In this document: positions 9,143 to 27,632 of the stretch, in pieces
Position numbering within the stretch: the first letter of the stretch is position 1
Layout of the letters: each line of letters opens with the position of its first letter
Assembly: GCF_000213805.1 (NCBI RefSeq)
Contig: NC_015556.1
Coordinates: 558,001 to 622,000, forward strand
From: Pseudomonas fulva 12-X
GTDB lineage: Bacteria; Pseudomonadota; Gammaproteobacteria; Pseudomonadales; Pseudomonadaceae
DNA length: 64,000 nt
Direction: 5' to 3'
The notes under the pieces: model-generated
The model's input: only the letters and a program-made list of their open reading frames with translations
What the model was told of the DNA's origin: nothing
Database searches by the model: none
Made by a program: the position numbers and the translations under genes

Positions 9143-10240
9143 CTAGCTGCGGCGTACCAGCAGCACACCCGACTCCATGTGATGGGTATAGGGGAACTGG
9201 TCGAACAGTGCGCAGCGCTCGATGCGGTGGGTGTCGTGCAGCTGGGCGATGTTCTGCGCCAGGGTTTCCGGGTTGCAGGAGATGTACAGGATGCGCTCGA
9301 AACGGCGGGTCAGCTCGCAGGTGTCCGGGTCCATGCCGGCGCGCGGCGGGTCGACGAACACGCTGCCGAAGTCGTAGCTCTTCAGGTCAACATCGGCCAG
9401 GCGGCGGAACGGACGAACATCATTGAGCGCTTCGGTCAGCTCCTCGGCGGACAGGCGCACCAGAGTGACGTTATCGATCTGGTTGTCGGCCAGGTTGGCC
9501 AGGGCGGCGTTGACCGAGGTCTTGCTGATCTCGGTGGCCAGCACCTTGCGCACGCGGGTGGCCAGCGGCAGGGTGAAGTTGCCGTTACCGCAATACAGCT
9601 CCAGCAGGTCGTCGTCGCGCTGGCCCAGCACATCGTAGGCCCAGCCGAGCATCTTCTGGCACACCTCGCCGTTGGGCTGAGTGAAGGCGCCCTCCGGCTG
9701 GCGGTAGCGGAAGCGGCGACCGGCGACCTGCAGTTCTTCTTCCACATACGGGCGGCCGACCACGATGCGCTTGCCCTTGGAGCGGCCGACCAGGCTCACC
9801 TGCAACTCCTCGGCGAGCTGAGTGGCGGCGGCTTCCCAGGCGTCATCGAGCGGGCGGTGGTAGCACAGGGTGATCAGCGCATCGCCGGTCAGGGTGGTCA
9901 GGAACTCGACCTGGAACAGCTTGAAGCCCAGTGCCGGGCTGGCCTGCCAGGCGGCCTTGAGGCGCGGCATCAGCTCGTTGATGCGCAGGCTGGCGATGGG
10001 GAAATCTTCGAAGAAGATCGGGCTGTGCTTGTCGCCGGCCTCGAACATCGCGTAGTGACGGTTCTCGCTGCCGGCCTCGCGCCACAGGCGGAATTCGGTA
10101 CGCAGGCGATAGTACTCGCGCGGCGACTCGAACACCTCGGGCTCAGGCGCGGCGAACGGCGTGAGCAGTTCGACCAGGCGGGCCTTCTTCTCGGCGAGTT
10201 GGGCGTCGTAGGCGGCGGGGTCGAATGCGGGACGGCTCAT
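9143..10240 (-). CDS. trmA: tRNA (uracil-54,C5)-methyltransferase
   Basis: This 365-residue protein matches TrmA in length and motifs: SAM-binding [14 protein letters not shown], catalytic-loop [13 protein letters not shown], and nucleophile Cys at about residue 322 in YISCNPETL. The C-terminal Glu sits in HHMESGVLL. TrmA makes ribothymidine at U54 of the T-loop of tRNA. There is no N-terminal TRAM domain and no Fe–S cysteine cluster, which separates it from RlmD/RumA. The gene stands alone on this strand. Confidence 0.95.
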
Positions 10241-12023: not shown

Positions 12024-13715
12024 ATGATCATCGGAATCGACCTTGGCACCACCAACAGTCTGGTCGCCGTCTGGGACGGCGAAGCGGCGCATCTGGTGCC
12101 CAATGCCCTGGGCCGCCTGCTGACGCCCAGCGTGGTCGGCCTGGACGACCATGACCAGCTGGTGGTCGGCGATATCGCCCGCGAGCGCCTGCAGACCCAT
12201 CCGCACCTCACCGCGGCGTTGTTCAAACGGCACATGGGCAGCGCCCAGAGCACCCGCCTGGGTTCGCGCTCGTTCCGCCCGGAAGAGTTGTCGGCCATGG
12301 TGCTGCGCAGCCTCAAGGAAGATGTCGAGCGCGCCTACGGGCAGCCGGTCACCGAGGCAGTGATCAGCGTGCCGGCCTATTTCAGCGACGCCCAGCGCAA
12401 AGCCACGCGCATCGCCGGCGAGCTGGCCGGCCTGAAGGTCGAAAAGCTGATCAACGAACCCACTGCCGCGGCCCTGGCTTACGGTCTGCACCAGAAGGGC
12501 GAGGCGACCTTTCTGGTCTTCGACCTGGGCGGTGGCACCTTCGACGTGTCGGTGCTGGAGCTGTTCGAGGGCGTTATGGAGGTGCGCGCCAGTGCCGGCG
12601 ACAACTTCCTCGGCGGCGAGGACTTCGACGATGTTCTGGTCGCCCACTTCCTCGCTGCCATGGGCGGCCAGGGTCTGCCCGACCACCAGCAGCCGGCAAT
12701 CAATCAGCGCCTGCGCCGTGAGGCCCAGCGCGTGCGCCATGCCCTTGGGCAACAGCCGGAGGCGACCTTCCAGCTGCGCGAGGATGGTCGCGAATGGACG
12801 CTGCCAGTGAGCCAGGACAAGCTGCTGAGCATCTGCGAGCCGCTGCTCGAGCGCCTGCGCGCGCCCATCGAACGGGCCCTGCGCGATGCGCGCATCAAGG
12901 TCGCCGACCTCGACGAAGTGCTGCTGGTCGGTGGCACCACGCGCATGCCGCTGGTGCGCAAGCTGGTGGCCAGCCTGTTCGGGCGCTTCCCGGCCATGCA
13001 CCTGAACCCTGATGAAGTGATCGCCCAGGGCGCTGCCATCCAGGCCGCGCTCAAGGCCCGCGATGCCACGCTCGAAGAAGTGGTGCTCACCGATGTCTGC
13101 CCCTACAGCCTGGGCGTGGAGATCAGCAAGCAGGTGGGTACCCAGCAGCAGAGCGGCCATTACATGCCGATCATCGAGCGCAACTGCGTGGTGCCGGTCA
13201 GCCGCGTGCAGAGCGTGTATACCCTGCATGACAACCAGAAGCAGGTCAGCGTGCGCATCTACCAGGGCGAGAGCCGCCTGGTGGCCAACAACATCTTTCT
13301 CGGCGAGCTGGAAGTGGCCGTGCCGCCGCGCCCGGCTGGCGAAGTGTCGCTGGATATCCGCTTCACCTACGACATCAACGGCCTGCTCGAAGCCCAGGTG
13401 GACACGCCGCTGACCGGCGAAAGCCACCGCCTGGTGATCGAGAACAACCCCGGCGTGCTCAGCCCCGCGGAAATCGCCGAGCGCTTCGCCGCTCTGGAGG
13501 CGCTCAAGGTTCACCCGCGCGACCAGCAGGTCAACAGCGCCCTGATGGCGCGCCTGGAGCGGCTGTATCAGGAATGCCTGGGCGATTTGCGCGAGCACAT
13601 CGGCCAGCTCGCCGCGCATTTCGCCGCGATCCTTGAAGGCCAGGACGAGCGGCAGATCCGCGAAACGCGCGGCGAGCTCACCGCCCGCCTGGACGCCATC
13701 GAGCAGGGGTACTGA
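12024..13715 (+). CDS. hscC: Specialised Hsp70 chaperone HscC
   Basis: This 563-residue DnaK-family protein is shorter than DnaK (about 638), as expected for HscC. Nucleotide-binding motifs are [10 protein letters not shown] at 3–12 and [12 protein letters not shown] at about 167–178, with [15 protein letters not shown] near 300. A substrate-binding domain and a shortened helical lid end at EQGY with no acidic DnaK-type tail. In E. coli HscC works with membrane J-proteins of the DjlB/DjlC type. Here two such proteins follow directly (6-bp gap, then a 7-bp overlap), so the three genes look like one operon. Client proteins are unknown. Confidence 0.92.
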
Positions 13716-13721
13716 TCGCTT

Positions 13722-15242
13722 ATGAATCCCTGGACGCTGCTTGGCCTGGACGCCGACGCCGATACCCGCAGCATCAAGCGCCGCTACGCGCAGTTGCTCA
13801 AACAGCACCGCCCGGACGAGGACCCCGAAGCCTTCCAGCGCCTGCGCGAAGCCTACGAACAGGCGCTGGCCCATGCCGCCGCGCAGGATCAGCCCTGGGA
13901 CGACGCTGCCGAGCAAGTGCCGGCGCCTGAGCTAGTGGAGCCGGACGAGCCGGTTGTGGTGGCCGCCGAGCAGCCGGCACACGCGCGCATCGAGCAACTG
14001 CTGCAGGCCAGCGAGTCGCTGGACGCCGCCCTGCAGCAGGCCCGCCAGTTGGGGCTGGAGGCCGATCTGCAGCGTCATCTGCTGGCCCGTTGCGGCACGC
14101 TGGATGAACAAGGCCTGCGCATTCTGCGCTGGGGCATGCAGCACCTGCAGTGGTTGTCGCCCTGGCAGGCCGACTACCTGCCGCGCACTCAGTCCGAGGC
14201 GCTGGCCGCGCGGCTGCTGGCCCTGGAGCTGGAAGCCCTGCAGCAGCGTCTGCAGGCGGGCGAGGAGCGTGTCGTGCTGGACGCCGCCAGCACGCTGCTT
14301 ATCAGCGACTGGCTGCAGTCGTTCGACCGCCGCCTGCAGTTGCAGGACGGCATGGTGTGGATGCTCGAAGTCACCGAAGACTGGTCGGGCGGGCTGTTCG
14401 ACCGCCTGTGCAGGCTGTTCGGCTGGAACGAGGACACCGGCGAACTGCCGTGCTCCGTCGAGCGCTGGAACTGGCTGTGCTGGCGCTGCGAGCGTCACGC
14501 CGCGGGCCAGCGCGTGCAGCAACATCTGCAACTCGATTGGCCGCTGCGCGCTGAAGAACGAGCCGCCTGGCTGCTGCTCAAGCCAATGGGCGAGCGTGAG
14601 GCGCGGCAGCTGGTCGACCGCTTCGATGCTGAAGACTGGCAGGCCTGCGACGCGCTGGAGCACCTGCTCACCGAGCGCTACCCCGAGTTGCCGGAGCAGC
14701 TCGGCCTGCAGATCGACGAGGACTGGCGGCGCTGGCAACCGCGCCAGTGGACGGTGCCTGCCACCGTCTACGCCTGGCTGCTGCTGTTCACCGCCATGTT
14801 CGCCACCTCGCTGCAGGAGGCGAAGCTTTCAGTGTACCTGGAGCGCTCGGGCGGCTATCTCGGCCTGGGCTTCAAGGACCTGCTGATCAGCGTCGGCATA
14901 GTCGCCTGGATGGTGATTGTGTCGCGTGGCTGGAGCCGGCTGGCGCGTTATCTGACGCGCCTCGATGTGCCGCTGAGTCGCCTGCTGCTGCCGGCCACCT
15001 GGCGTGACGCGGGTGCCGGCATGCTGGTGCTGCGCCATGGCCTGCCGGCGGCGTTGTTCGCGCTGATCGTCACCGGCTTCGCCCCGAGCCTGGTTTCCGA
15101 CTGGGTCGTGTTCGGCGCGGCCTTGCTGCTCGAAGTGCTGTTTCTCGGTCTGGTCGGTAGCCGCCGCATGCCCTGGCCGCGCTGGTCGCTGTGGCGCACC
15201 GGCGCCTTCAAGGTCGACTACCGCAAGAAGGCCGAATGGTGA
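13722..15242 (+). CDS. Membrane-anchored J-domain-like partner of HscC (DjlB/DjlC type), first copy
   Basis: This 506-residue protein starts with a J-like helix pair (MNPWTLLGLDADADTRSIKR, then RYAQLLKQHRPDEDPEAFQR). The usual HPD tripeptide reads H29-R30-P31-D32, with an inserted Arg. A long Leu/Gln-rich soluble region follows, then about four hydrophobic segments between residues 344 and 480 (YAWLLLFTAMFATSL and FGAALLLEVLFLGLVG). It sits 6 bp after hscC. It should recruit HscC to the membrane and stimulate its ATPase, if the altered motif still works. It is paralogous to the next gene. Confidence 0.85.
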   Translation: MNPWTLLGLDADADTRSIKRRYAQLLKQHRPDEDPEAFQRLREAYEQALAHAAAQDQPWDDAAEQVPAPELVEPDEPVVVAAEQPAHARIEQLLQASESLDAALQQARQLGLEADLQRHLLARCGTLDEQGLRILRWGMQHLQWLSPWQADYLPRTQSEALAARLLALELEALQQRLQAGEERVVLDAASTLLISDWLQSFDRRLQLQDGMVWMLEVTEDWSGGLFDRLCRLFGWNEDTGELPCSVERWNWLCWRCERHAAGQRVQQHLQLDWPLRAEERAAWLLLKPMGEREARQLVDRFDAEDWQACDALEHLLTERYPELPEQLGLQIDEDWRRWQPRQWTVPATVYAWLLLFTAMFATSLQEAKLSVYLERSGGYLGLGFKDLLISVGIVAWMVIVSRGWSRLARYLTRLDVPLSRLLLPATWRDAGAGMLVLRHGLPAALFALIVTGFAPSLVSDWVVFGAALLLEVLFLGLVGSRRMPWPRWSLWRTGAFKVDYRKKAEW

Positions 15243-16984
15243 GCCCCTGGGAACTGCTAGGTCTGGACGCCGGGGCCGACACCCGCAGCATCAAGCGCCG
15301 CTACGCGCAACTGCTCAAACAGACCCGGCCGGATGAGGATCCCGAATCGTTTCAGCGGTTGCGTGAGGCCTATGAGTGGGCGTTGGATTGGGCGCAGCGT
15401 ACCCAGAACGTGGACGAACCACCTGTGGTTCACGAAAGCGTCACGCCACCGCCGTTCGGCGATGGGCAGCGCGCCTTCGCGCCGTTGACCGAAACCCAAT
15501 CGCAGGACAGTGATGAAAACGCCTGGATATGCAGCCTGCCGGACAGTTGTGCGTCGTTGGACGATGCCTTGTTCCAGGCACGCGAGGCTGGCCTGGAACA
15601 GGTTTTAGAGCTGGAGCTGCTACGCCGCAGTCAGCTGCCTGGCGAGCGGGCCATCGAGATCGTGCGCTGGGCCATGGCGCGTCTGGACTGGCTGACACCC
15701 TGGCAGGCCGATTATCTGTCGCCGCAGGTCATGGCCCAGTTGGCCGAGCGCCTGCTGGATTGCGAGTTGGCTACCCTGCAGGCCGACTTCGGGCAGATGA
15801 GCGAAGCTGAATTCATCACCCGAATCCGCGCGCTGGGCAGGCAGAAATGGCTGCGGCCGCTCGAACTCAGTCGCCGCCTTCAGCTGGCCGTGATGGCGTT
15901 GCTGGAGGCACGCGATGACTGGTCGCTATCGGCGCTCGAGTCTGCCACCGAGGTGTTTGGCTGGAGCGAGATGCTCGGCAACATGCCGTTCTCGGCAGAT
16001 CGCTGGGCAGGGCTCTCCGAGCGCGCCTTCGAATACAGCGTAGTGCAGCGCCTGCGCGAGCAGCTGAACCTCGACGTACCGGTCAGTCCCGAGCAGGCGG
16101 CCACCTGGTTTCTCCTCAAGCCGCTTGAAGACGATGTGCGACGGCGCATGGCCGAGCGATTTGGCGAGCCGGAGTGGCGGGCCTGTGAGCAACTGGATCA
16201 GCAATTGCGTAGCAGCTCGACCCTGGCCCGCTCATTCGGTGGCTATCAGAAGGATTGGCGCGACTGGAAATCGCTGTCCTGGGGGCGGTGGGCGACGATC
16301 TACGTGTGGCTGCTGACAGCCGTGGTGTTGTTTGCCAGTCAGCTTTACCTCAGTGCCAACAAACCTGAGCCAACCCTGGCCCGCGACGGCATTGCCGCGC
16401 TGGCCGCCAGCGTACTGGTCAGTGCGCTTCTCAGTGTATTCCGGCGTGTCTGGGGCCGATTGGCCAAGTTGCTCGACGCCCAGGATCGCTGGCTCAGCAG
16501 GCGCCTGGTTCCTCTGGGGCTGGCCAGTGGGCGCCACGGGCTGTTGCTCATACGGCATCTGGCGCCGCTGGCTTTTCTCAGCCTGCTGGTCAGCGGTTGG
16601 GCTCGCCAGTTGCCTGGCTGGTGGGGCCCCGGGCTGGGCCTGGCCACGGCAGTCGGTGGCTGCTGGTTTCTGGCGCGTGTTACCCAAGGCGTGCCAGCCA
16701 ACGCCTGGGTGCTGAGAATCGGTGGGCTGTTCAATCGGCATACCTGGGTGATGATGCTGGTGTGGCTGGCGCTGATCATTGGCGGCAGCATCCTGGGCGC
16801 CACCTTGGGGCCGAAGGGGCAGCGCGCCACGTCACCTGACTACAGCCATGGGTTAGAGAACCCCTGCGCTCACCCCACCGATGCCGAGCAGCAACGGTTT
16901 TGCGACGAGGCTGCGCAAATGGTCAGGAAGGCGATGGGCGATTTCGAGCGGCAGCGATCCGGTGAATCAAAGCCTCAGGGCTGA
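15236..16984 (+). CDS. Membrane-anchored J-domain-like partner of HscC, second copy with degenerate HPD
   Basis: This 582-residue paralogue of the preceding gene shares the opening SPWELLGLDAGADTRSIKRR and the PDEDPESFQRLREAYE region. The HPD site reads T30-R31-P32-D33, so the histidine is lost. Four to five hydrophobic segments lie between about 351 and 525 (WATIYVWLLTAVVLFASQ; WVMMLVWLALIIGGS). A short C-terminal tail has two cysteines (CAHPTDAEQQRFC). The ATG at 15236 overlaps the upstream stop by 7 bp, indicating translational coupling. Whether it activates HscC or only binds clients is open. Confidence 0.83.
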   Translation: MVSPWELLGLDAGADTRSIKRRYAQLLKQTRPDEDPESFQRLREAYEWALDWAQRTQNVDEPPVVHESVTPPPFGDGQRAFAPLTETQSQDSDENAWICSLPDSCASLDDALFQAREAGLEQVLELELLRRSQLPGERAIEIVRWAMARLDWLTPWQADYLSPQVMAQLAERLLDCELATLQADFGQMSEAEFITRIRALGRQKWLRPLELSRRLQLAVMALLEARDDWSLSALESATEVFGWSEMLGNMPFSADRWAGLSERAFEYSVVQRLREQLNLDVPVSPEQAATWFLLKPLEDDVRRRMAERFGEPEWRACEQLDQQLRSSSTLARSFGGYQKDWRDWKSLSWGRWATIYVWLLTAVVLFASQLYLSANKPEPTLARDGIAALAASVLVSALLSVFRRVWGRLAKLLDAQDRWLSRRLVPLGLASGRHGLLLIRHLAPLAFLSLLVSGWARQLPGWWGPGLGLATAVGGCWFLARVTQGVPANAWVLRIGGLFNRHTWVMMLVWLALIIGGSILGATLGPKGQRATSPDYSHGLENPCAHPTDAEQQRFCDEAAQMVRKAMGDFERQRSGESKPQG

Positions 16985-18640: not shown

Positions 18641-18934
18641 TTAGTGAATCAATCCACTAAGCAGCCACAAACCCAGCAACAGCCAGATCAGCCCGCCGAT
18701 CACCGAGCCGCGCATGAACGAGCGCACCGCGCTGTACAGCAGGATCAGACCCAGCAGCAGCACGGCGATGCTGAGCAGCGACGGGGTGACGCCCAGGGCG
18801 CCGGACAGGCCGTCGATAAAACTGGATACCGCGCCGGCGAGCATGCCGAACACGCCGCTCAGGGCGTCGACGATAAAGCGGATGAACGAGCCGAATGCCT
18901 CGCCCAGGGATTCGAAAAAGCCTTCTACGCGCAT
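18641..18934 (-). CDS. Small membrane protein of unknown function
   Basis: This 97-residue protein has an amphipathic first half rich in Phe, Gly and Ser (FFESLGEAFGSFIRFIVDAL). Two membrane segments follow, at about 53–72 and 77–96. The start ATG 18934 has AGGAA 8 bp upstream; an open frame 11 codons longer has no such site. I do not recognise a family. It lies downstream of the hybrid kinase genes on the same strand, about 100 bp after them. Confidence 0.6.
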   Translation of the reverse strand: MRVEGFFESLGEAFGSFIRFIVDALSGVFGMLAGAVSSFIDGLSGALGVTPSLLSIAVLLLGLILLYSAVRSFMRGSVIGGLIWLLLGLWLLSGLIH

Positions 18935-19035
18935 GCAGGGATTCCTGGAAAACGGAAAGGGCGACAAGCGCCAGGGTGCTGACTATTGAGCCGCTGCGCC
19001 CTGGCCTAGTTCCCGAATTCTGCGGATGGCGCCGT

Positions 19036-21165
19036 TCACGCGCCGAGCATGGCCTTGAGCTTGCTGGCCAGCGACTCGAAGGAGAACGGCTTGGCGATCA
19101 TGTCCATGTCCTTGCCCAGGTAGCCGTCGCGCAGCTCGGCGCCCTCGGCGTAGCCGGTGGCGAACAGCACCTTGAGGCCCGGCTGACGCTGGCGAGCGGC
19201 GTCGGCGAGCTGACGGCCGTTCATGCCCGGCAGGCCGACATCGGTAAGCAGCAGGTCGAGCGGCGCGTGCCGCTCCAGAAGACCCAGAGCGCTCTGTGCG
19301 TCACTGGCCTGGATCAGCTGGTAGCCGAGCTCTTCGAGTACCTCGATCATCAGCATGCGCACCACCTGGTCGTCCTCCACCACCAGAATCCGCTCGCCAG
19401 TGCCGCGCGGTGCGTCACGCCGGGCGTCCACCGGCTGCTCGGTGGGTGCCACGGGCAGGCGCGGCAGATAGAGGTTCAGGGTGGTGCCGCGTCCGACCTG
19501 GCTTTCCAGGTGCAGATAACCGCCGGTCTGCTTGACGAAACCGTAGACCATCGGCAACCCGAGACCGGTGCCCTGGCCGATGGGTTTGGTGGTGAAGAAG
19601 GGTTCGAAGGCGTGGCGGATGATTTCCTCCGGCATGCCACAGCCGGTGTCGCTGACCGACAGCAGCAGGTAATCGCCGGGCGGCACCTGGTAGTTGTGCG
19701 CCTCGCTTTCACCGAGCTGAGTGTTGCGGGTCTCGATGCGCAGCGTGCCGCCGTCGGGCATGGCGTCGCGGGCATTGATGGCCAGGTTGATCAGCGCGTT
19801 TTCCAGCTGGTGGCTGTCGCTGCGGGTCGGCCACAGGTCGTCGGCCAACTGGATTTCCAGGGCGATCTGCTCGCCCAGGGTGCGCACCAGCAGGTCTTCG
19901 AGGGCGCATACCAGGGTGTTGACCTGCACCGGGCGCAGGTCCAGGGACTGGCGCCGGGCAAAGGCCAGCAGGCGATGGGTCAGCGAGGCGCCGCGGTTGG
20001 CCGAGGCGATGGCGGCATCGACAAAGCGGGCCAGTTGCGGGTGATCATTGGCCGGAAGCTTGCGCTGGATCAGCTCCAGGCTGCCGAGGATGCCGGCCAG
20101 AAGATTGTTGAAGTCGTGCGCGATGCCGCCGGTGAGCTGGCCGATGGCTTCCATCTTTTGCGCCTGGCGCAGCTGCTCCTCGGCCTGGATGCGCTGCAGG
20201 ACGGCTTCGCTGACCCGTTCCTCGAGGGTCTGGGTCAGTTGGCGTAGCGCCAGTTCGGTGCGCTTGCGCTCATCGATATCCATCAGCACGCCGGGAAAAC
20301 GCAGTGGCGTGCCGTCGGCGGCCAGCTCACAACGGCCGTTGGCCTCGATCCAGCGGTAGCCGCCTTCTGGGTGCAGTACCCGGTACTCGGCGCGGTAAGC
20401 GCCGCCGCTGGCGATGGTACGTTCGATCGACGCGCGCACCGCGGGACGGTCGTCCGGGTGGATGGCGGCGGTCACCTGATCCAGTGCCATACCGCTGGCG
20501 GCCTGCTGCGGGTCGGCAGCGAAGGCGCGGGCGAAGCGCTCGTCACCGGTCACCCGGTCTTGCGGAATGTCCCACACCCAGGTGCCGAGCACCGCGCCGG
20601 CGTCGAGCGCCAGTTCGATGCGCTCCTTGGCGCTGCGCAGTTCGGCTTCGGCCTGGCTGCGCTGCTCGATGGCGACCACCTGGCTGGTGGTCTCCACCAC
20701 GATGCACATCATGCCGTGGGAGCGGCCGGTGTTATCGAGCAGCGGGTTGTAGTAGAGGTTCATCCAGGCATCTTCCTGCAGGCCTGGGCGGCGTAGCGGC
20801 AGGTAGAGGTTTTCCTGGCACATGGAACGGCCGCTCAGGCCCATGGCGATCACATGGCGGTTCCACTCGGCGATCTCCGGCCAGGCGTCTTCAGCCGGCA
20901 GGCCGAAAACTTCTGGATGACGCTGGCCAGCGAAGGCCGCGTAGGCATCGTTGTAGATCAGTACACCGTGCTCGCCGCACAGCAATACGATGGGCGTCGG
21001 CGAGGAAAGGATCAGCCGCGTGGTGCTGACCAGCACCTCTGGCCATCGCTCGATGGGGCCGAGGCTGGTGGCTGCCCAGTCGAAGCGGTGGATGAGCTCG
21101 ACCGCTTCGCCGGTCTGGCCGGCGAACAGGCAGGTCTGGGAGGGAGTATTTGGCGTCGCGGACAT
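19036..21165 (-). CDS. PAS hybrid sensor histidine kinase with C-terminal receiver
   Basis: This 709-residue, apparently cytoplasmic kinase has two PAS-like domains (about 20–150 and 165–290, the second ending [13 protein letters not shown]). A coiled linker and HisKA box follow with phospho-acceptor His at about 350 ([13 protein letters not shown]). HATPase motifs are [21 protein letters not shown] and [12 protein letters not shown] receiver at about 590–705 has its Asp in [13 protein letters not shown]. The Met at 21165 is chosen because longer starts would run into the upstream kinase gene, which ends 55 bp away. It is the last gene of a four-gene minus-strand unit that begins with the phytochrome. 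Confidence 0.88.
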
Positions 21166-21220
21166 CGATTGGGAGCCTATCCTGGCGGTTTGGCCGTTAG
21201 CGGGCCGCGGCGCGGGTGGG

Positions 21221-23611
21221 TCAGTTGGGTTTGCCGCTGGCGAAGGCGTGCTGCAGTTTTTCCGCCAGTTCGTCGCTGCGGTAGGGCTTCTGCACGATAA
21301 AAGCCTCATCGGCATCCAGCCCGCCGATCTCGGCATAGCCGGTGACGAACACCACCGGCAGCTGCGGGTAGCGGCGGCGCACCGCCTGGGCCAACTCGGC
21401 GCCGTTCATGCCCGGCATGGCGAAGTCGGCGAGTAGCAGGTCGATGTCGTCATCGAGCTTGGCCAGGGCATCGAGGCCGCTGTGGGCCTCGCGCACCTGG
21501 TAGCCGAGTGCATCGAGGGTCAGGGCGGTGACCTCGCGAACCCGCGGATCATCGTCGACCAGCAGGATGGTGCGCTGGTCACCGGGCTCGGCGACCGGCA
21601 GCGGCTGGCTGGAGACCTGCTCGTCTGCCTGCACCACGTTGCGCAGGCCCGGCAGGTAGACCTTGACCGTGGTGCCCACGCCCATCTTGGTGAGAATGCG
21701 CGCGCCGCCGCCGGACTGCTTGGCGAAGCCGAACACCTGGGCCAGGCCAAGGCCCGAGCCCTTGCCGATTTCCTTGGTGGTGAAGAACGGCTCGAATGCC
21801 TTGGCCAGTACCGCCTCGCTCATGCCGCTGCCGGAATCCTGCACCGACAGCACCACGTAGTCGCCAGGCTCCGGATCTTCCGGGCGGCTGGGCATTTCGC
21901 TGATCACCTCGTTGCTGGTGCTCAGGCGCAGGGTGCCGCCGACGCCCATGGCGTCGCGGGCATTGATCGCCAGGTTGAGGATGATCAGCTCGATCTGCGT
22001 CGGGTCGACCCGGGCGTGCCACAGGTCCGGCTCGGTGGCTGTCTCGATCAGCACGCTGCCGCCCAGGGTGCTTTTCAGCAGTTCGAGCATGCCCTGCACG
22101 GTTTCACCAAGGTTGACCGCTTCCGGCACCAGGCGCTGGCGACGTGAGAAGGCCAGCAGCTGGGCGGTCAGCTTGGCGCCGCGCTCGCCGGCATCGGTGA
22201 TGTTCTGCAGACGGCCGCGGGCCTTGTCCAGGTTGCCCTTTTCCAGGTCGCGGATCAGGAAGCTGGTGCTGGTCAGCACCACGGTCAGCAGGTTGTTGAA
22301 GTCGTGGGCGACGCCCGCGGTGAGCTGGCCGACCGCTTCCAGGCGCTGCATCTGCTGCAGGGTCGCCTCGACCCGTTCGCGCTCGGCGATCTGCTCGCGC
22401 AGCTGCTGGTTGGTGGCCGCCAGTTCCTCGACCACCGCACGCTCGTGGGTGATGTCGCGAACCGTGGCGTACAGCAGGTCGTCATCGCGCACCACGATCC
22501 ACGACAACCAGTGGTAGTCGTCGTTGGCATGGCGCATACGGTTGACGAAACGCACCGAGACGTTGTCCGAGGTCACCCGTTCGATGTGCGCGCGGGTGTC
22601 CTGCTGATCGTCGGGGTGCACCAGTTCCCAGAGCGGGCCCTGGGTGAGCTGCTGGCGCGTCCAGCCCAGGGTCTGCTCCCAGGCGGGGTTGAGGGCGCTT
22701 GAGCGCATATCGAAGCGCAACACGGCAAGCAGGTCGCGGGACAATTCCCAGTTGCGGTCACGCTCGCGGGTACGCTTCTCGACACGCTCGCCGAGCACGT
22801 CGTTGAGGCGCAGCAGTGCTTCGTTGGCCTGCTTCTGTTCGGTGATGTCGTGCAGCACGCCGAGAAAACGGGTGCACTGGCCATCGTCGAAGAACGCCTG
22901 GCCACGGGCGGAAATCCAGCGCTTGCTGCCGTTGCTCAGGGGCAGGCGGAATTCGGCCTGGAACTCGTTGCCGCTGTCGGTGGCCAGGGCCTCGTTGACC
23001 CGCTGGCGCAACTGGGCACGGTCGTCCTCGTGGCAGCGACCGAGAAACAGCGCCATGTCGACGTCAGCGTCCGGCTCCAGCTCGTAGAGGGCGCGGCAGC
23101 GTTCGTCCCAGATCAGCGTGTCGGTGGCCGGCACGTAATCCCACATGCCCATGCGCGCCGCGCCGATGGCCAGCCGGGCGCGGGCTTCGACAGTCTGCAG
23201 GGTATCTTCCACCCGGCGGCGTTCTTCGCGCTCGTTGACCTCGGCCATGGCGCGGTCGATGGCCTTGGGCAGAAACGGCAGATTCTGTTTGAGCACGTAG
23301 TCGACGGCGCCCAGGCGCATCATCTCCACCGCATGCTCTTCGCCGAACATGCCGGACAGGAAGATGAACGGCGTCTGCGGTGCCAGGCGACGCGCCACTT
23401 CCAGTGCCTGGGCGCCGGACGAGCCGGGCAGCAGGTAGTCGGAAAGAATCAGGTCGAAGCGCTCACGCTGTAATGCGCGCTCGGCGGCTTCATGGTCATA
23501 GACCAGGGTGCAGTCGACAACCAGGCCATTGCGTTCCAGTGCGAGCAGGGCCAGCTCCGCGTCATGCGGGCTGTCTTCGATGAACAGCAGTTTGAGAGGC
23601 ACAAGCGGCAT
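21221..23611 (-). CDS. Receiver–PAS–PAS–histidine kinase–receiver hybrid protein
   Basis: This 796-residue protein has receivers at both ends: REC1 at about 5–122 (Asp in LILSDYLLPGSSG) and REC2 at about 675–790 (Asp in LLLADFAMPGMNG). Between them are two PAS domains (about 150–265, ending LGVLHDITEQKQ, and about 290–395, ending YATVRDITHERA). The kinase core has His in [12 protein letters not shown] near 430 and ATP site [15 protein letters not shown]. No membrane segment is seen. The N-terminal receiver could take phosphate from the phytochrome or its partner receiver and pass it on. It lies 60 bp downstream of the single-receiver gene. Confidence 0.9.
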   Translation of the reverse strand: MPLVPLKLLFIEDSPHDAELALLALERNGLVVDCTLVYDHEAAERALQRERFDLILSDYLLPGSSGAQALEVARRLAPQTPFIFLSGMFGEEHAVEMMRLGAVDYVLKQNLPFLPKAIDRAMAEVNEREERRRVEDTLQTVEARARLAIGAARMGMWDYVPATDTLIWDERCRALYELEPDADVDMALFLGRCHEDDRAQLRQRVNEALATDSGNEFQAEFRLPLSNGSKRWISARGQAFFDDGQCTRFLGVLHDITEQKQANEALLRLNDVLGERVEKRTRERDRNWELSRDLLAVLRFDMRSSALNPAWEQTLGWTRQQLTQGPLWELVHPDDQQDTRAHIERVTSDNVSVRFVNRMRHANDDYHWLSWIVVRDDDLLYATVRDITHERAVVEELAATNQQLREQIAERERVEATLQQMQRLEAVGQLTAGVAHDFNNLLTVVLTSTSFLIRDLEKGNLDKARGRLQNITDAGERGAKLTAQLLAFSRRQRLVPEAVNLGETVQGMLELLKSTLGGSVLIETATEPDLWHARVDPTQIELIILNLAINARDAMGVGGTLRLSTSNEVISEMPSRPEDPEPGDYVVLSVQDSGSGMSEAVLAKAFEPFFTTKEIGKGSGLGLAQVFGFAKQSGGGARILTKMGVGTTVKVYLPGLRNVVQADEQVSSQPLPVAEPGDQRTILLVDDDPRVREVTALTLDALGYQVREAHSGLDALAKLDDDIDLLLADFAMPGMNGAELAQAVRRRYPQLPVVFVTGYAEIGGLDADEAFIVQKPYRSDELAEKLQHAFASGKPN

Positions 23612-23671
23612 GGAGAGGTCGTCGATTACGGTCTGTTTTAGGACTGGATAGTACGCAAGCGGTACAGGTGC

Positions 23672-24157
23672 TCAGTTGCCATCGGCTTGCTGCTCGTCGT
23701 CCTTGGTGCGGCGCTGCAGGCGCATGGAGCCGGGTGGCGGCTCGTTGAGCACGGCCCAGAACACACCCAGGTCGGAAATGGCCGAGACGAAAGCCTTGAA
23801 TTCGACCGGTTTGACTACGTAGGCGTTCACGTTCAATTCGTAGGCGCGCTGCAGATCCGGGCCCTCACGGGAGGAGGTGAGCATGACGATCGGCATGCTG
23901 CGCAGCTCGGCCGAGTCACGTACCGCCTTGAGCACTTCCAGGCCGTCTACTTTGGGCAGCTTGAGGTCGAGCATCATGATCGCCGGGTTGCCGGGCAGGC
24001 GGTCGGCGTGGTCGCCGCGGCGGAACAGGTAGTCAAGCGCCTCGGCGCCATCACGCATGACGATCACGTCGTTGGCCAACTGGCTGCGCTCCAGCGCGAT
24101 CAGAGTCAATTCCAGATCGTGTGGATTGTCTTCGACCAGCAGAATCGGTTTGAGCAT
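23672..24157 (-). CDS. Stand-alone receiver, phytochrome-associated (Rcp1-like) response regulator
   Basis: This 161-residue single-domain response regulator has acidic pair E9/D10 (LLVEDNPHDLELT), phospho-Asp in MMLDLKLPKVDG, switch Thr in VMLTSSREG and Lys in YVVKPVEF. There is no DNA-binding output. The long beta4–alpha4 region and NVNAYVVKPVEF style are typical of the small receivers paired with phytochrome kinases. It starts 16 bp after the phytochrome stop, so translation is probably coupled. It is the likely first phosphate acceptor. The last 20 residues (RRTKDDEQQADGN) are a charged tail. Confidence 0.9.
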   Translation of the reverse strand: MLKPILLVEDNPHDLELTLIALERSQLANDVIVMRDGAEALDYLFRRGDHADRLPGNPAIMMLDLKLPKVDGLEVLKAVRDSAELRSMPIVMLTSSREGPDLQRAYELNVNAYVVKPVEFKAFVSAISDLGVFWAVLNEPPPGSMRLQRRTKDDEQQADGN

Positions 24158-24173
24158 TCGTGTCCTCGTCCCG

Positions 24174-26432
24174 TTACGCAAGAACGGGGTGGTGGCGTTT
24201 GGGTAACGCGAAGTAGAAGGTGGCGCCCTGGTCGATCTTGCCCTCGGCCCAGACCCGCCCATCGTGACGCTCGATTATACGTCGTACACTGGCCAAGCCG
24301 ATGCCGGTGCCTTCGAATTCCTCCATGCGGTGCAGGCGCTGGAACACGCCGAACAGCTTGTCGACATATTCCATATTGAAGCCCACGCCGTTGTCGCGCA
24401 CAAAGACGATCACTTCATCGTCATGTTGTTCGGCACCGATGACGATTATCGCCGGGTCTCGTTCGCGGCTGTACTTGATGGCGTTGGCCAGCAGGTTGCG
24501 CAGCGCCAGGTGCAGGAAGGCGGCATCGGCCACTACCCGTGGCAGTGGCTGGATATGCCATTCCAGGTTGCGGTTCTGGTAGTCGGGCTTCATTTCCTCG
24601 CGGATCGCTTCGACCAGCGCATGCAGATTCACGTCGGTGAAACGCAGCGCCGAGCGGCCCATCTGCGAGAAACTCAGCAGGTTGTCCACCAGGGTGCCGG
24701 CGAAGCGCGCCGACTCGGTGATGTGCTCGAGAAAGCGCACCCCGCGCTCGGACAGCTTGGTGCCTTCGAAGTCCGCCAGCAGCTCGGCGTAGCCGGCGAT
24801 ATGCCGCAGCGGCGCACGCAGGTCATGGGACACGCTATAGGAGAAGGCTTCCAGTTCCTTGTTGCTCTTTTTCAGGTCGCTGGCCAGTTGGGCCATTTCC
24901 TCGGCCTTGCGCAGCACGATGCCGAGCACCGCGTTGCGCAGCTCCAGGGCGCTTTCCGGTTCCTGGGGATGCCAGGGCGTGGAAAAACCGCTGATCTCCT
25001 CCTGCCAGCGCGCGAAGCTGTTGCGCGGGCTGAGGGCGCCGCTGGCGCTGACCGCTTTCTCGGGCTTGCCGGCCCACTCGACAACGCGCTTCTGCTCCGG
25101 CTTGAACCAGATCAGGTAATGAGAGTGAATTTCCGAGATGGCCACCGCCAACAAACCGCCAATGTGTTCGCTCAGCCCGGGCAGTTCGGGGATGTCGCGG
25201 CCGACGTTATCGGTCTGGAACAGATCATCGCTCGTATGGGCTCCCAGCCACTGCACCAGGGCATTGACCTGATCACGCGGTGGCGTCTGCCCGATAAGAT
25301 CGCAATGCGAGGCGGAGATGATTGCCGCGCCGCTGGCCTTGGCGAAGTCGAGAAAGGTGTCGGGCAGTGACAATAGGCCTTCGCTGACGCTGTCACGGTC
25401 GGCCATCGACGAGAGCATCTGCACGATATGGCGGCGCAGCTGCAGCAGATGCTGGGTGCGCGAGTGGGCGATCTTCGCCTCGATCTGCAGCGACAGCATG
25501 CGGCCCAGTAGTTCGCAGGCGGTGCGGGTCTGGAAACCGACCGGGCGGGCACTGGCGTGGTGGCAGGAAATCAGCCCCCACAACCGGCCCTCGACCACGA
25601 TGGAGATCGACATCGAGGCGATGGTCTGCATGTTGCGCATGTATTGCAGGTGCACCGGCGAGACGCTGCGCAGGGTCGCGTAGCTCAGGTCCAGCGGCTT
25701 GCCGGTCAGCGGGTTACAGGCGGGGCGCAGCGGCGAGGGCTGGTAGTTGGCGTCCTCGATCACCCGGATGCGGTTGGCCACGTACAGTTGACGGGCCTGG
25801 GGTGGGATGTCCGAAGCCGGAAAGCTCAGGCCCAGATAGCTGGGGTAACCCTCGTCGAGGCATTCGGCGAGTACCAGGCCGTTGCCTTCGGGATCGAAGC
25901 TGTAGATCTTCACCCGGCCGAAGCCGGTGAGGCGCTTGACCTCGGCCACCGACAGGCGGCACAGCTCGTCGATGTCATCGGCGCCCTGCAGGTGACCGAT
26001 GAAGGTACGCACCATCGGATACAGGGTGTTGTAGGCCGTCACCACGTTGCTGGTGGGCTCGAATTCGGCGATCAGCACCTGATCGAAGCGATGCGCGACC
26101 ATGGCGGTCGGCTCGCTGCGGCGCTTGCCTTCGCGAAAGCGCACGTCGCCGATGTGAAAGGGCGTGGTGTCGTCGTCGGACAGTTGGGCGAGGCGCTCGG
26201 CCAGCACGGCGCCGTCTTCGAGCAGCTCGTCCAGGTGCATGCCCAGCAGCTGGTCAGGCTCGAGACCCAACCAATCGGCGACGTTCTCGCTCACTTGCAG
26301 CACCGTCAGCGCCTGCTCGTCGAACACCATCAGAAAACCCTGGGGCTGGATGCTGCCCGGGATATGGATGGGTTCCTTCGCGCAGTTGGCGATCGCGGTG
26401 CTCAGGTCGATGCTGGTATCACTAGACGCCAA
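24174..26432 (-). CDS. bphP: Bacteriophytochrome, biliverdin-binding red/far-red sensor histidine kinase (TTG start)
   Basis: The protein has 752 residues from TTG 26432. The PAS domain (about 12–115) holds NCAKEPIHIPGSIQPQG, whose Cys17 corresponds to the biliverdin-attaching cysteine of bacteriophytochromes. The GAF domain (about 130–300) has FPASDIPPQARQLY and SPVHLQYMRNM. A PHY domain follows to about 500. The kinase has the H-box FSYSVSHDLRAPLRHIAGY, then RDNGVGFNMEYVDKLFGVF and GTGIGLASVRRI. The frame extends 45 codons upstream, but a perfect GGAGGAG lies 6 bp before the TTG and none before ATG 26483. One change from the usual motif is QPQG instead of QPHG. No heme oxygenase gene is seen in the window. 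Confidence 0.93.
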   Translation of the reverse strand: MASSDTSIDLSTAIANCAKEPIHIPGSIQPQGFLMVFDEQALTVLQVSENVADWLGLEPDQLLGMHLDELLEDGAVLAERLAQLSDDDTTPFHIGDVRFREGKRRSEPTAMVAHRFDQVLIAEFEPTSNVVTAYNTLYPMVRTFIGHLQGADDIDELCRLSVAEVKRLTGFGRVKIYSFDPEGNGLVLAECLDEGYPSYLGLSFPASDIPPQARQLYVANRIRVIEDANYQPSPLRPACNPLTGKPLDLSYATLRSVSPVHLQYMRNMQTIASMSISIVVEGRLWGLISCHHASARPVGFQTRTACELLGRMLSLQIEAKIAHSRTQHLLQLRRHIVQMLSSMADRDSVSEGLLSLPDTFLDFAKASGAAIISASHCDLIGQTPPRDQVNALVQWLGAHTSDDLFQTDNVGRDIPELPGLSEHIGGLLAVAISEIHSHYLIWFKPEQKRVVEWAGKPEKAVSASGALSPRNSFARWQEEISGFSTPWHPQEPESALELRNAVLGIVLRKAEEMAQLASDLKKSNKELEAFSYSVSHDLRAPLRHIAGYAELLADFEGTKLSERGVRFLEHITESARFAGTLVDNLLSFSQMGRSALRFTDVNLHALVEAIREEMKPDYQNRNLEWHIQPLPRVVADAAFLHLALRNLLANAIKYSRERDPAIIVIGAEQHDDEVIVFVRDNGVGFNMEYVDKLFGVFQRLHRMEEFEGTGIGLASVRRIIERHDGRVWAEGKIDQGATFYFALPKRHHPVLA

Positions 26433-26696
26433 GATGATCTCCTCCGGTTCCAGACCGATCGACGGCGGTCTCGTGGGTGCCATGGTCTGCGATGGCGGGC
26501 GCTTTCGTCTGTGCACATTCTTGCGGCAGTCTGCACGGACTTTAGCGCCGGGTAAACCGTCATCCACGCCAACCGCCGGGCGGCAGGTCGCGAGGAACTT
26601 TGCCCGGTCGCTTGCCTCTGAATGCCGCCTGATTCAGCGTGCGATTGCAACATTGTCCAGGCATGCTGAGCGCGCTCCCCGAATCCGAGAATTTCC

Positions 26697-27632
26697 ATGA
26701 TAGCTGCCATCAAGCTGGCTTTCTCCCGCCTGCCCCTCATGCGCCCGAGAGTCTGGGCGCTGTTGTCGATCCTTCTGCTGGCGGGCTATCAGGTGCATGC
26801 GCTGCATCTGGATGACCGAGTGTATTACTGGCTGACCACGCCGGCGGCCTTGCAGAACGCACCCGGCAGCCTCACGGGGCGCGCCTATCAGGTGCAGGTC
26901 AATGCCCGGCCGGTTGCCGGTGTCAATGACAACCTGTCCGGCATCACCTATGACGATCAACGCGATCAGCTGTGGGCGGTGGTCAACAACCCGTCGGAGC
27001 TGCTGGCCATGAGCCGGGACGGTGAAGTGACGGCGCGCTACCCGCTGAGCGGCTTCAGCGATGTCGAGGACGTGACCTACCTGGGCGACGGCCAGTTGCT
27101 GTTCGTCGAGGAACGCGAGCAGCGGCTGGCCGTGGTGCCGGTGCCCAGGCAGGCTGGTGCGCTGTTTCGCGAGGATTACCGTTCGCTGACCCTGGGTATC
27201 GGCCGTGATGGCAATCAGGGCTTCGAAGGGATTGCTTATGATCGGGCCGGGGATCGGCTGTTCGTGGCCAAGGAGCATTCGCCGATTAAGCTCTACGAAG
27301 TGCGTGGCCTGAAACGCAGCGTCGAGGGCGACTTCGGCCTGAAAATCATCGACCACGACGAGTGGATTCGCGATTCGGTGTTCGCCACCGATCTTTCCGC
27401 CGCGCATTTCGACGAGCAGACCGGGCACCTGATGCTGCTCAGCGACGAGTCGAAACGAGTCATGGAACTCGATGGCAATAGCGGCAAGCTGATCGGCTAC
27501 CGAACCCTGGACAGCGATTTCGCCGGTCTCGGCAAGGCCGTGCCCCATGGCGAGGGCATGACCTTCGATGACCGCGGCAACCTGTACATCGTCAGCGAGC
27601 CCAATCTGTTCTATCGCTTCAACCGCAGTTGA
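26697..27632 (+). CDS. SdiA-regulated-type (YjiK-like) membrane-anchored beta-propeller protein
   Basis: This 311-residue protein has one N-terminal hydrophobic segment (about 18–36, VWALLSILLLAGYQVHALHL) and a periplasmic domain built of repeated blades. Examples are NLSGITYDDQRDQLWAVVNN, FSDVEDVTYLGDGQLLFVEE and GNQGFEGIAYDRAGDRLFVA. This matches the SdiA-regulated family; biochemical function is not established. The start at 26697 has no strong ribosome site, and Met15 at 26739 is an alternative. It diverges from the phytochrome operon; the 264-bp gap holds both promoters. Confidence 0.82.
   Translation: MIAAIKLAFSRLPLMRPRVWALLSILLLAGYQVHALHLDDRVYYWLTTPAALQNAPGSLTGRAYQVQVNARPVAGVNDNLSGITYDDQRDQLWAVVNNPSELLAMSRDGEVTARYPLSGFSDVEDVTYLGDGQLLFVEEREQRLAVVPVPRQAGALFREDYRSLTLGIGRDGNQGFEGIAYDRAGDRLFVAKEHSPIKLYEVRGLKRSVEGDFGLKIIDHDEWIRDSVFATDLSAAHFDEQTGHLMLLSDESKRVMELDGNSGKLIGYRTLDSDFAGLGKAVPHGEGMTFDDRGNLYIVSEPNLFYRFNRS

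Follow-up and report, generated by a model that had tools for sequence, protein, structure and literature searches.

A receiver-linked bacteriophytochrome operon in Pseudomonas fulva 12-X with a conserved three-gene core and an apparently lineage-specific second hybrid kinase

The locus

The minus strand carries four genes in head-to-tail order within a 64,000-nucleotide stretch of the Pseudomonas fulva 12-X genome (NC_015556.1, positions 558,001 to 622,000; the whole stretch is 'the window' in what follows). The first, bphP (24174..26432, -), encodes a bacteriophytochrome histidine kinase of the type termed class A below, with the Pfam architecture PAS_2-GAF-PHY-HisKA-HATPase. It is followed after 16 bp by a stand-alone receiver of the BRR/Rcp1 type (23672..24157, -; Response_reg in Pfam), after a further 60 bp by a hybrid kinase, HY1 (21221..23611, -; REC-PAS-PAS-HisKA-HATPase-REC), and after 55 bp more by a second hybrid kinase, HY2 (19036..21165, -; PAS-PAS-HisKA-HATPase-REC). 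The coordinates thus bear out the tight spacing given in the original prediction, made from the letters of the window, and Pfam its tally of one light (bilin) input, four receivers and three kinase cores, with no DNA-binding or cyclic-di-GMP output in the domain content of the operon. Its description as a four-gene phosphorelay stands only in part: the four genes do adjoin, but the conserved module is of three, with HY2 seemingly peculiar to one lineage. Real and conserved, the operon is for the most part of a known kind. The new parts are the added kinase, the slot that it shares with heme oxygenase genes of other lineages, and a biliverdin enzyme apparently coupled to gacS. A literature search, with subscription literature mostly outside its range, found no published account of the operon in the P. 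straminea group.

The start of bphP is a TTG at 26432, with a GGAGG ribosome-binding site (26441..26445, -) 8 nt upstream. A longer frame from a GTG at 26567 exists and is unlikely to be the one used; the TTG is supported because in 10 of 11 other P. straminea-group loci a GGAG-type site and TTG are found at the same place (L094 is the exception). Two further loci, L097 and L098, have a GTG there. The upstream neighbor, a divergent gene of the SdiA-regulated family (26697..27632, +; PF06977), marks the border of the operon, a border shared with all 11 other P. straminea-group loci and with L097 and L098, and occupies the place directly upstream of bphP that bphO has in the bphO-bphP-AlgB system. 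No Rfam match was found.

Class A phytochromes and their conserved core

Two samples bear on conservation. In a draw of 149 genomes from the genus, 96 match the bphP product, used as query, at E 1e-60; class A comprises the 43 rows, from 40 genomes, at identities of at least 60%, the remaining rows being at 39% or below. Of these 43, 40 were taken with their flanks, those left out being the window's own, G120:C95 and G146:C47. The other sample is of named loci obtained by scanning contigs with HY1 as query, and since only the best 80 of 440 relatives by HY1 were kept, it is biased toward loci like that of the window (records of the window itself, or very near ones, may be missing from it). The order bphP-receiver-HY1 is present in all 40 class A genus loci, though the HY1 match in G054 (L074) stops at residue 406, and in 79 of the 80 named loci, three of them from Chitinibacteraceae. 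The conserved unit, judged from these sequences, is therefore the three genes bphP-receiver-HY1. The one exception, L135 from Pseudomonas mangiferae, has an HY1 gene with neither phytochrome nor receiver within 18 kb. A class-wide search for HY1, in which two candidates were scored per listed genome, found it in one genome of 369, the window's own, a figure that does not bound its range.

The product of bphP has what a photosensor of this kind calls for, PAS-GAF-PHY with the N-terminal Cys, the DIP Asp and a PRxSF tongue, together with intact HisKA and HATPase domains having their H-box and N-box. The biliverdin Cys, DIP Asp, PRxSF Arg, GAF His, H-box His and N-box Asn are invariant in the 80 aligned phytochromes, as are an Asp at H+1 and an Ala at H+4. 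Agp1, with the same H+1 Asp/H+4 Ala pattern, is reported to be a kinase with diminished phosphatase activity (PMC8292422). On the phytochrome tree the nearest named locus is from P. straminea (95%). The protein is not filed as a member of the NCBIfam bacteriophytochrome BphP equivalog NF041576 because its score, 324.9 bits, is below the curated cut-off of 1040. A second phytochrome in the genome is ruled out by the count of PHY matches, one in the whole single contig of 4,920,769 bases. (Elsewhere in the genus, G023 has three class A phytochrome loci, L053, L069 and L078, a single 180 kb contig carrying two of the three.)

The lower-identity rows are of a different kind. When 60 of them, from the 56 genomes that have no class A phytochrome (lower rows of genomes holding class A being left out), were paired with heme oxygenase positions, a heme oxygenase gene was immediately upstream on the same strand in 56. 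With the class A phytochrome these rows share about 33-39% identity, and by their bphO linkage they are the BphP1 class of P. aeruginosa and P. syringae. Pseudomonas accordingly holds two phytochrome classes, easily lumped together. The earlier remark that most Pseudomonas bphP genes have bphO beside them is apt for this other class and not for class A, where a heme oxygenase gene behind HY1 is present in just 4 of 40 genus loci (L045, L074, L081 and L082), so that lack of one is the ordinary condition. What the operon of the window has in common with the BphO-BphP(1) arrangement is a biliverdin-type histidine-kinase phytochrome and, elsewhere in the genome, KinB and AlgB-type genes; it differs in that there bphO is directly upstream and no receiver gene is in the operon.

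Receiver, first hybrid kinase and precedents

Among solved chains the stand-alone receiver comes closest to 5ic5 ('Candidate response regulator, CheY'; E 5.6e-68), which we take to be RtBRR of Ramlibacter; next is 5brj (E 1.6e-56). Its acidic Asp, phospho-Asp, Thr and Lys are invariant in 80 of 80 and its first helix is nearly so across the ten rows shown. In HY1, the first REC (residues 7-135) matches that of LvrB (8vc9; E 7e-42); solved chains resembling its kinase core are 5idj ('Histidine kinase') and 5idm (CckA). Among 81 HY1 proteins the REC1 Asp, H-box His and N-box Asn are without exception and the REC2 Asp is present in 79, the other two being gaps. In REC2, 7 rows also have Ser in place of Thr at one site, and in REC1 there are three isolated exceptions, at the switch residue or in the acidic pocket. 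All 81 have an Asp at H+1 and, in a bifunctional pattern, an Asn at H+4.

The main functional precedent is the putative operon of Ramlibacter tataouinensis, with genes for a heme oxygenase (HmuO), BphP1, a CheY-type receiver (BRR) and an atypical hybrid kinase (BHK), where the hybrid kinase mutant is reported to resemble phytochrome mutants (PMC6848086). The succession of phytochrome kinase, BRR-type receiver and REC-containing hybrid kinase is that of the window. Differences are that the heme oxygenase gene is within the operon there, none being in the operon here, and that HY2 is extra here; RtBHK is likened to HY1 by description, its sequence and domain order being outside the comparison. 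P. syringae BphP2, which has a stand-alone REC gene adjoining it (PSYR2385/2384; PMC2222644 Table 2), provides another case of a receiver gene beside a phytochrome gene, the likeness of strain B728a also being one of description rather than sequence.

A parallel of a mechanistic sort is with the LvrA-LvrB-LvrC system of Leptospira, in which one kinase feeds another that is controlled by its Rec domain. LvrB is presented as the structural prototype of Rec-controlled kinases, phosphorylation of its receiver freeing the catalytic domains (PMC13269768). REC1 of HY1 is homologous to the LvrB REC and its phosphorylation site is intact. However, HY1 differs in having two PAS domains between REC1 and the kinase, in place of a direct one-helix REC-DHp junction, as well as a C-terminal REC, and because the PAS domains intervene its resemblance to LvrB is one of input and not that of a minimal Rec-DHp-CA member.

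The second hybrid kinase and the slot that it occupies

What lies behind HY1 varies. Among the 80 named loci, a heme oxygenase gene is within 400 bp in 45 (on the same strand in 44, at a distance of 166 bp in one of them), while HY2 is there in 10, and additionally in the window. In L167 the heme oxygenase gene behind HY1 is on the opposite strand. In 23, neither is present within 400 bp, a count that includes L155, with a heme oxygenase gene at 572 bp, and some rows, such as L163, that are short of sequence; in L093 the contig ends behind HY1. HY2 and heme oxygenase genes were together in none of the 80. The spacing of HY1 and HY2 is roughly 64-220 bp in the 10 named loci, all of the one clade, compared with 55 bp in the window. 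Two P. viridiflava loci (L151 and L152) have the full core and a heme oxygenase gene but not HY2; this species we take to be a member of the P. syringae group.

A tree of 80 phytochrome rows, built by a quick method with LG+G4, gives HY2 as gained once, with support of 100, and requires 7 changes of the heme oxygenase state. On this tree HY2 may either have replaced the heme oxygenase gene or have come after its loss. Within the 149-genome draw, HY2 is present at 89-94% in G147 and G001 besides the genome of the window; among the matches listed, other full-length ones are at 49% or below and shorter ones, to the kinase and receiver, reach 59%. By these distributions HY2, seen only in the P. 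straminea group, was gained once by the group ancestor, at the position behind HY1 that in other lineages is taken by a divergent heme oxygenase gene. In the HY2 gene of P. flavescens the stretch from the kinase match to the receiver match is longer by about 260 bases (L095:12232-12496).

A recent origin of HY2 as a copy of HY1 can be dismissed, the two being 40% identical over 478 aligned kinase-receiver positions and HY2 being 43-59% identical to other hybrids among the matches listed. Nor is either hybrid a second, LOV-type light input, as a LOV-motif pattern matches neither HY1 nor HY2.

A rival with a substantial claim, though one that falls short of being probable, is that HY2 has only its transcript in common with the core, being an unrelated hybrid kinase, and that the light pathway is that of the three-gene core alone. 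Restriction of HY2 to one clade is what such an arrangement would give, and at 17 loci of its nearest relatives elsewhere no recurrent signaling neighbor was seen (the one recurrent neighbor, at 11 of the 17, encodes a UvrA-like ABC protein, as judged by eye). Against this, in each of the 10 named clade loci with HY2 the gene is behind HY1, and its receiver and REC2 of HY1, at 41% identity, are mutually closest among seven receivers compared.

The source of biliverdin

That biliverdin would have to come from another locus had been anticipated, and indeed no heme oxygenase was found among ten flanking open reading frames scanned with Pfam. Three whole-genome searches agree on a single heme oxygenase gene at G000:C1:1599837-1600379, outside the window (558001-622000) and about 1 Mb away. 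In the extracted locus the gene is at L011:8820-9440 (-), its ATG at 9440 being assumed, and if this is the start it overlaps by 17 bases the end of a gacS-type gene (L011:9424-12288, -; sCache_4-HAMP-HisKA-HATPase-REC-Hpt). The best NCBIfam model of the latter is BarA, matched nearly full length at 832 bits with a cut-off of 890; BarA is the enterobacterial GacS. This linkage is present in all three clade genomes inspected (L011, L086 and L087) and in none of 20 other heme oxygenase loci picked. Since it is the only heme oxygenase of the genome, the gacS-linked enzyme must, on sequence grounds, be the source of biliverdin, if there is one.

The gacS-linked enzyme scores higher with 1j77 ('HemO', 175.8 bits) than with 1sk7 ('pa-HO', 128.9 bits), which we take to be Neisseria HemO and P. 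aeruginosa PigA respectively. At four positions that may govern the unusual beta/delta cleavage by PigA (a literature search gave no confirmation of them), its residues differ from those of PigA, which would favor the IXalpha isomer required by phytochromes.

The heme oxygenase genes found behind HY1 in other lineages are divergent. Three tested were below the Pfam cut-off or unmatched, and NCBIfam returned 0 families for three heme oxygenases. Their kinship is nevertheless apparent from a 28-row profile that matches the solved 1sk7 and 1j77 (E 6e-16 and 2e-15), a His being invariant where the alignment puts that of the solved enzymes. The same profile recovers the module enzyme at E <1e-67 in four control genomes (G133, G054, G013 and G028). 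A hidden second heme oxygenase of this type can be set aside for the HY2-bearing genomes, as in G000 (that of the window), G147 and G001 the profile picks up nothing but the gacS-linked gene. In the draw, every one of the 40 class A genomes encodes a heme oxygenase, detected by Pfam in 38 and, in G028 and G133, by way of the module enzyme.

Relatives of the gacS-linked enzyme at 61-74% are encoded, in L189, L190, L191 and L198, behind a large HlyD and M50-peptidase-like protein, the M50 match being below the Pfam cut-off in two of the four. Both of the loci scanned, L189 and L190, have another HlyD-type gene ahead of the one for the large protein, making for an export-like setting.

Candidate outputs and a proposed path

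For most phytochrome kinases of non-photosynthetic bacteria the targets are described as unknown (PMC6932827). With the operon of the window the genome at large, to which the original prediction had pointed for a heme oxygenase and an orphan histidine phosphotransfer (Hpt) protein, supplies a candidate. Among its 12 Pfam matches to Hpt there is a single short frame, of 158 aa, the others being judged by frame length. The short protein is of the HptB type and its gene is between one for a REC-SpoIIE-HATPase protein (HsbR-like) and fliK; a 101-aa STAS gene (HsbA-like) precedes the HsbR-like gene, and the set lies between fliJ and fliK. The names rest on domain content and gene order rather than on sequence comparison with P. 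aeruginosa. In P. aeruginosa the HptB-HsbR-HsbA pathway is made up of the same types of gene, and its named inputs are PA1611, SagS and ErcS' rather than a phytochrome operon; the HptB node there is reported to switch between flagella and biofilm via FlgM, HsbD and RpoS (PMC6482189).

A path can then be proposed, in which biliverdin would be bound at the N-terminal Cys of the phytochrome. The latter, from its H+1 Asp and H+4 Ala, would be a light-modulated kinase with little phosphatase activity, and would phosphorylate both the stand-alone receiver and REC1 of HY1. As with LvrB, phosphorylation of REC1 may decide whether HY1 acts as a kinase or as a phosphatase. Phosphate is predicted to be exchanged between the short Hpt protein and the C-terminal receivers of both hybrids, so that light would enter the HptB-HsbR-HsbA partner switch affecting flagella, RpoS and biofilm, a node to which HY2 would bring a further PAS input unrelated to light. 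The HsbR output so proposed would parallel LvrC, a receiver joined to an anti-sigma-type domain.

The operon is a class A and putatively red/far-red light-sensing one, of the P. syringae BphP2/Ramlibacter BphP1 type, and that signal passes by the core path is judged somewhat probable. The path is favored because the core and its photochemical and phosphotransfer residues are invariant or nearly so, REC1 is LvrB-like and Ramlibacter offers a precedent. The core provides a concrete candidate path from phytochrome to Rec-controlled kinase to one Hpt protein. The HptB step, taken by itself, is a tentative prediction and somewhat unlikely to be right. Several considerations tell against the path as drawn. 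HptB is chosen solely as the one short Hpt protein, and hybrid kinases can use Hpt domains inside other proteins, or none. That one kinase serves both the stand-alone receiver and REC1 of HY1 is a guess, as the two share only 29% identity, and relay order is not given by sequence alone. Finally, AlgB is present and could be the real output.

The last point amounts to a rival in its own right: that AlgB is the true phytochrome output, as in P. aeruginosa, with the neighboring receiver and hybrids being modulators or phosphate sinks. In the P. aeruginosa/P. syringae class linked to bphO, the phytochrome is reported to target AlgB (PMC6932827, PMC11316798), and P. aeruginosa BphP to phosphorylate AlgB orthologs of several classes (PMC6932827). 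A KinB_sensor match and an adjacent REC-Sigma54-Fis protein are encoded at G000:C1:220000-228000 (L084), the latter being named AlgB by position; no NCBIfam equivalog cut-off was reached. With these genes present though the bphO-linked phytochrome is missing (the lone PHY match being that of bphP), AlgB could still be a target. Opposed to this are the low identity, about 33-39%, of class A to the bphO-linked rows and the linkage of class A phytochromes to a receiver of their own in 79 of 80 loci, and the rival is deemed unlikely. The BphR/AlgB rule of PMC6932827 predicts nothing here because the genome has both a BphR-like receiver and AlgB; in the set of bphP-bearing bacteria of that paper none had the two. 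The pairing of a bphP-adjacent BphR-like receiver with an AlgB-type gene is thus absent from that set, and here KinB and AlgB-type genes occur where the only phytochrome is of the receiver-linked class.

That there is no operon, each gene having a promoter of its own and the tight spacing being incidental, is highly improbable: gaps of 55-60 bp could hold promoters, but 79 of 80 loci, Chitinibacteraceae included, retain bphP, receiver and HY1 in that order, and a terminator scan (a weak test) found no terminator-like site in any of the three gaps. A consensus promoter scan gave 0 sites versus a shuffle mean of 1.0, which carries no weight either way.

Returning to the path from phytochrome through HY1 to HptB, a more far-reaching and decidedly speculative version of it, with little expectation of being correct in full, would have the light-sensing operon of the P. 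straminea group swap a pigment-making gene for a second integrating kinase, with the sole heme oxygenase gene translationally coupled to gacS. The amount of functional phytochrome would then follow Gac, and the output would meet the HptB-HsbR anti-sigma switch. If true, light sensing would be wired into the Gac/HptB lifestyle network both at chromophore supply and at phosphate output.

Other features of the window

Directly downstream of HY2 is an open reading frame of 108 aa (18641-18967, -) with long hydrophobic stretches and no Pfam match. Further away (12024-16984, +), an Hsp70-type gene is followed by genes for two proteins with weak DnaJ matches, slightly below the Pfam cut-off.

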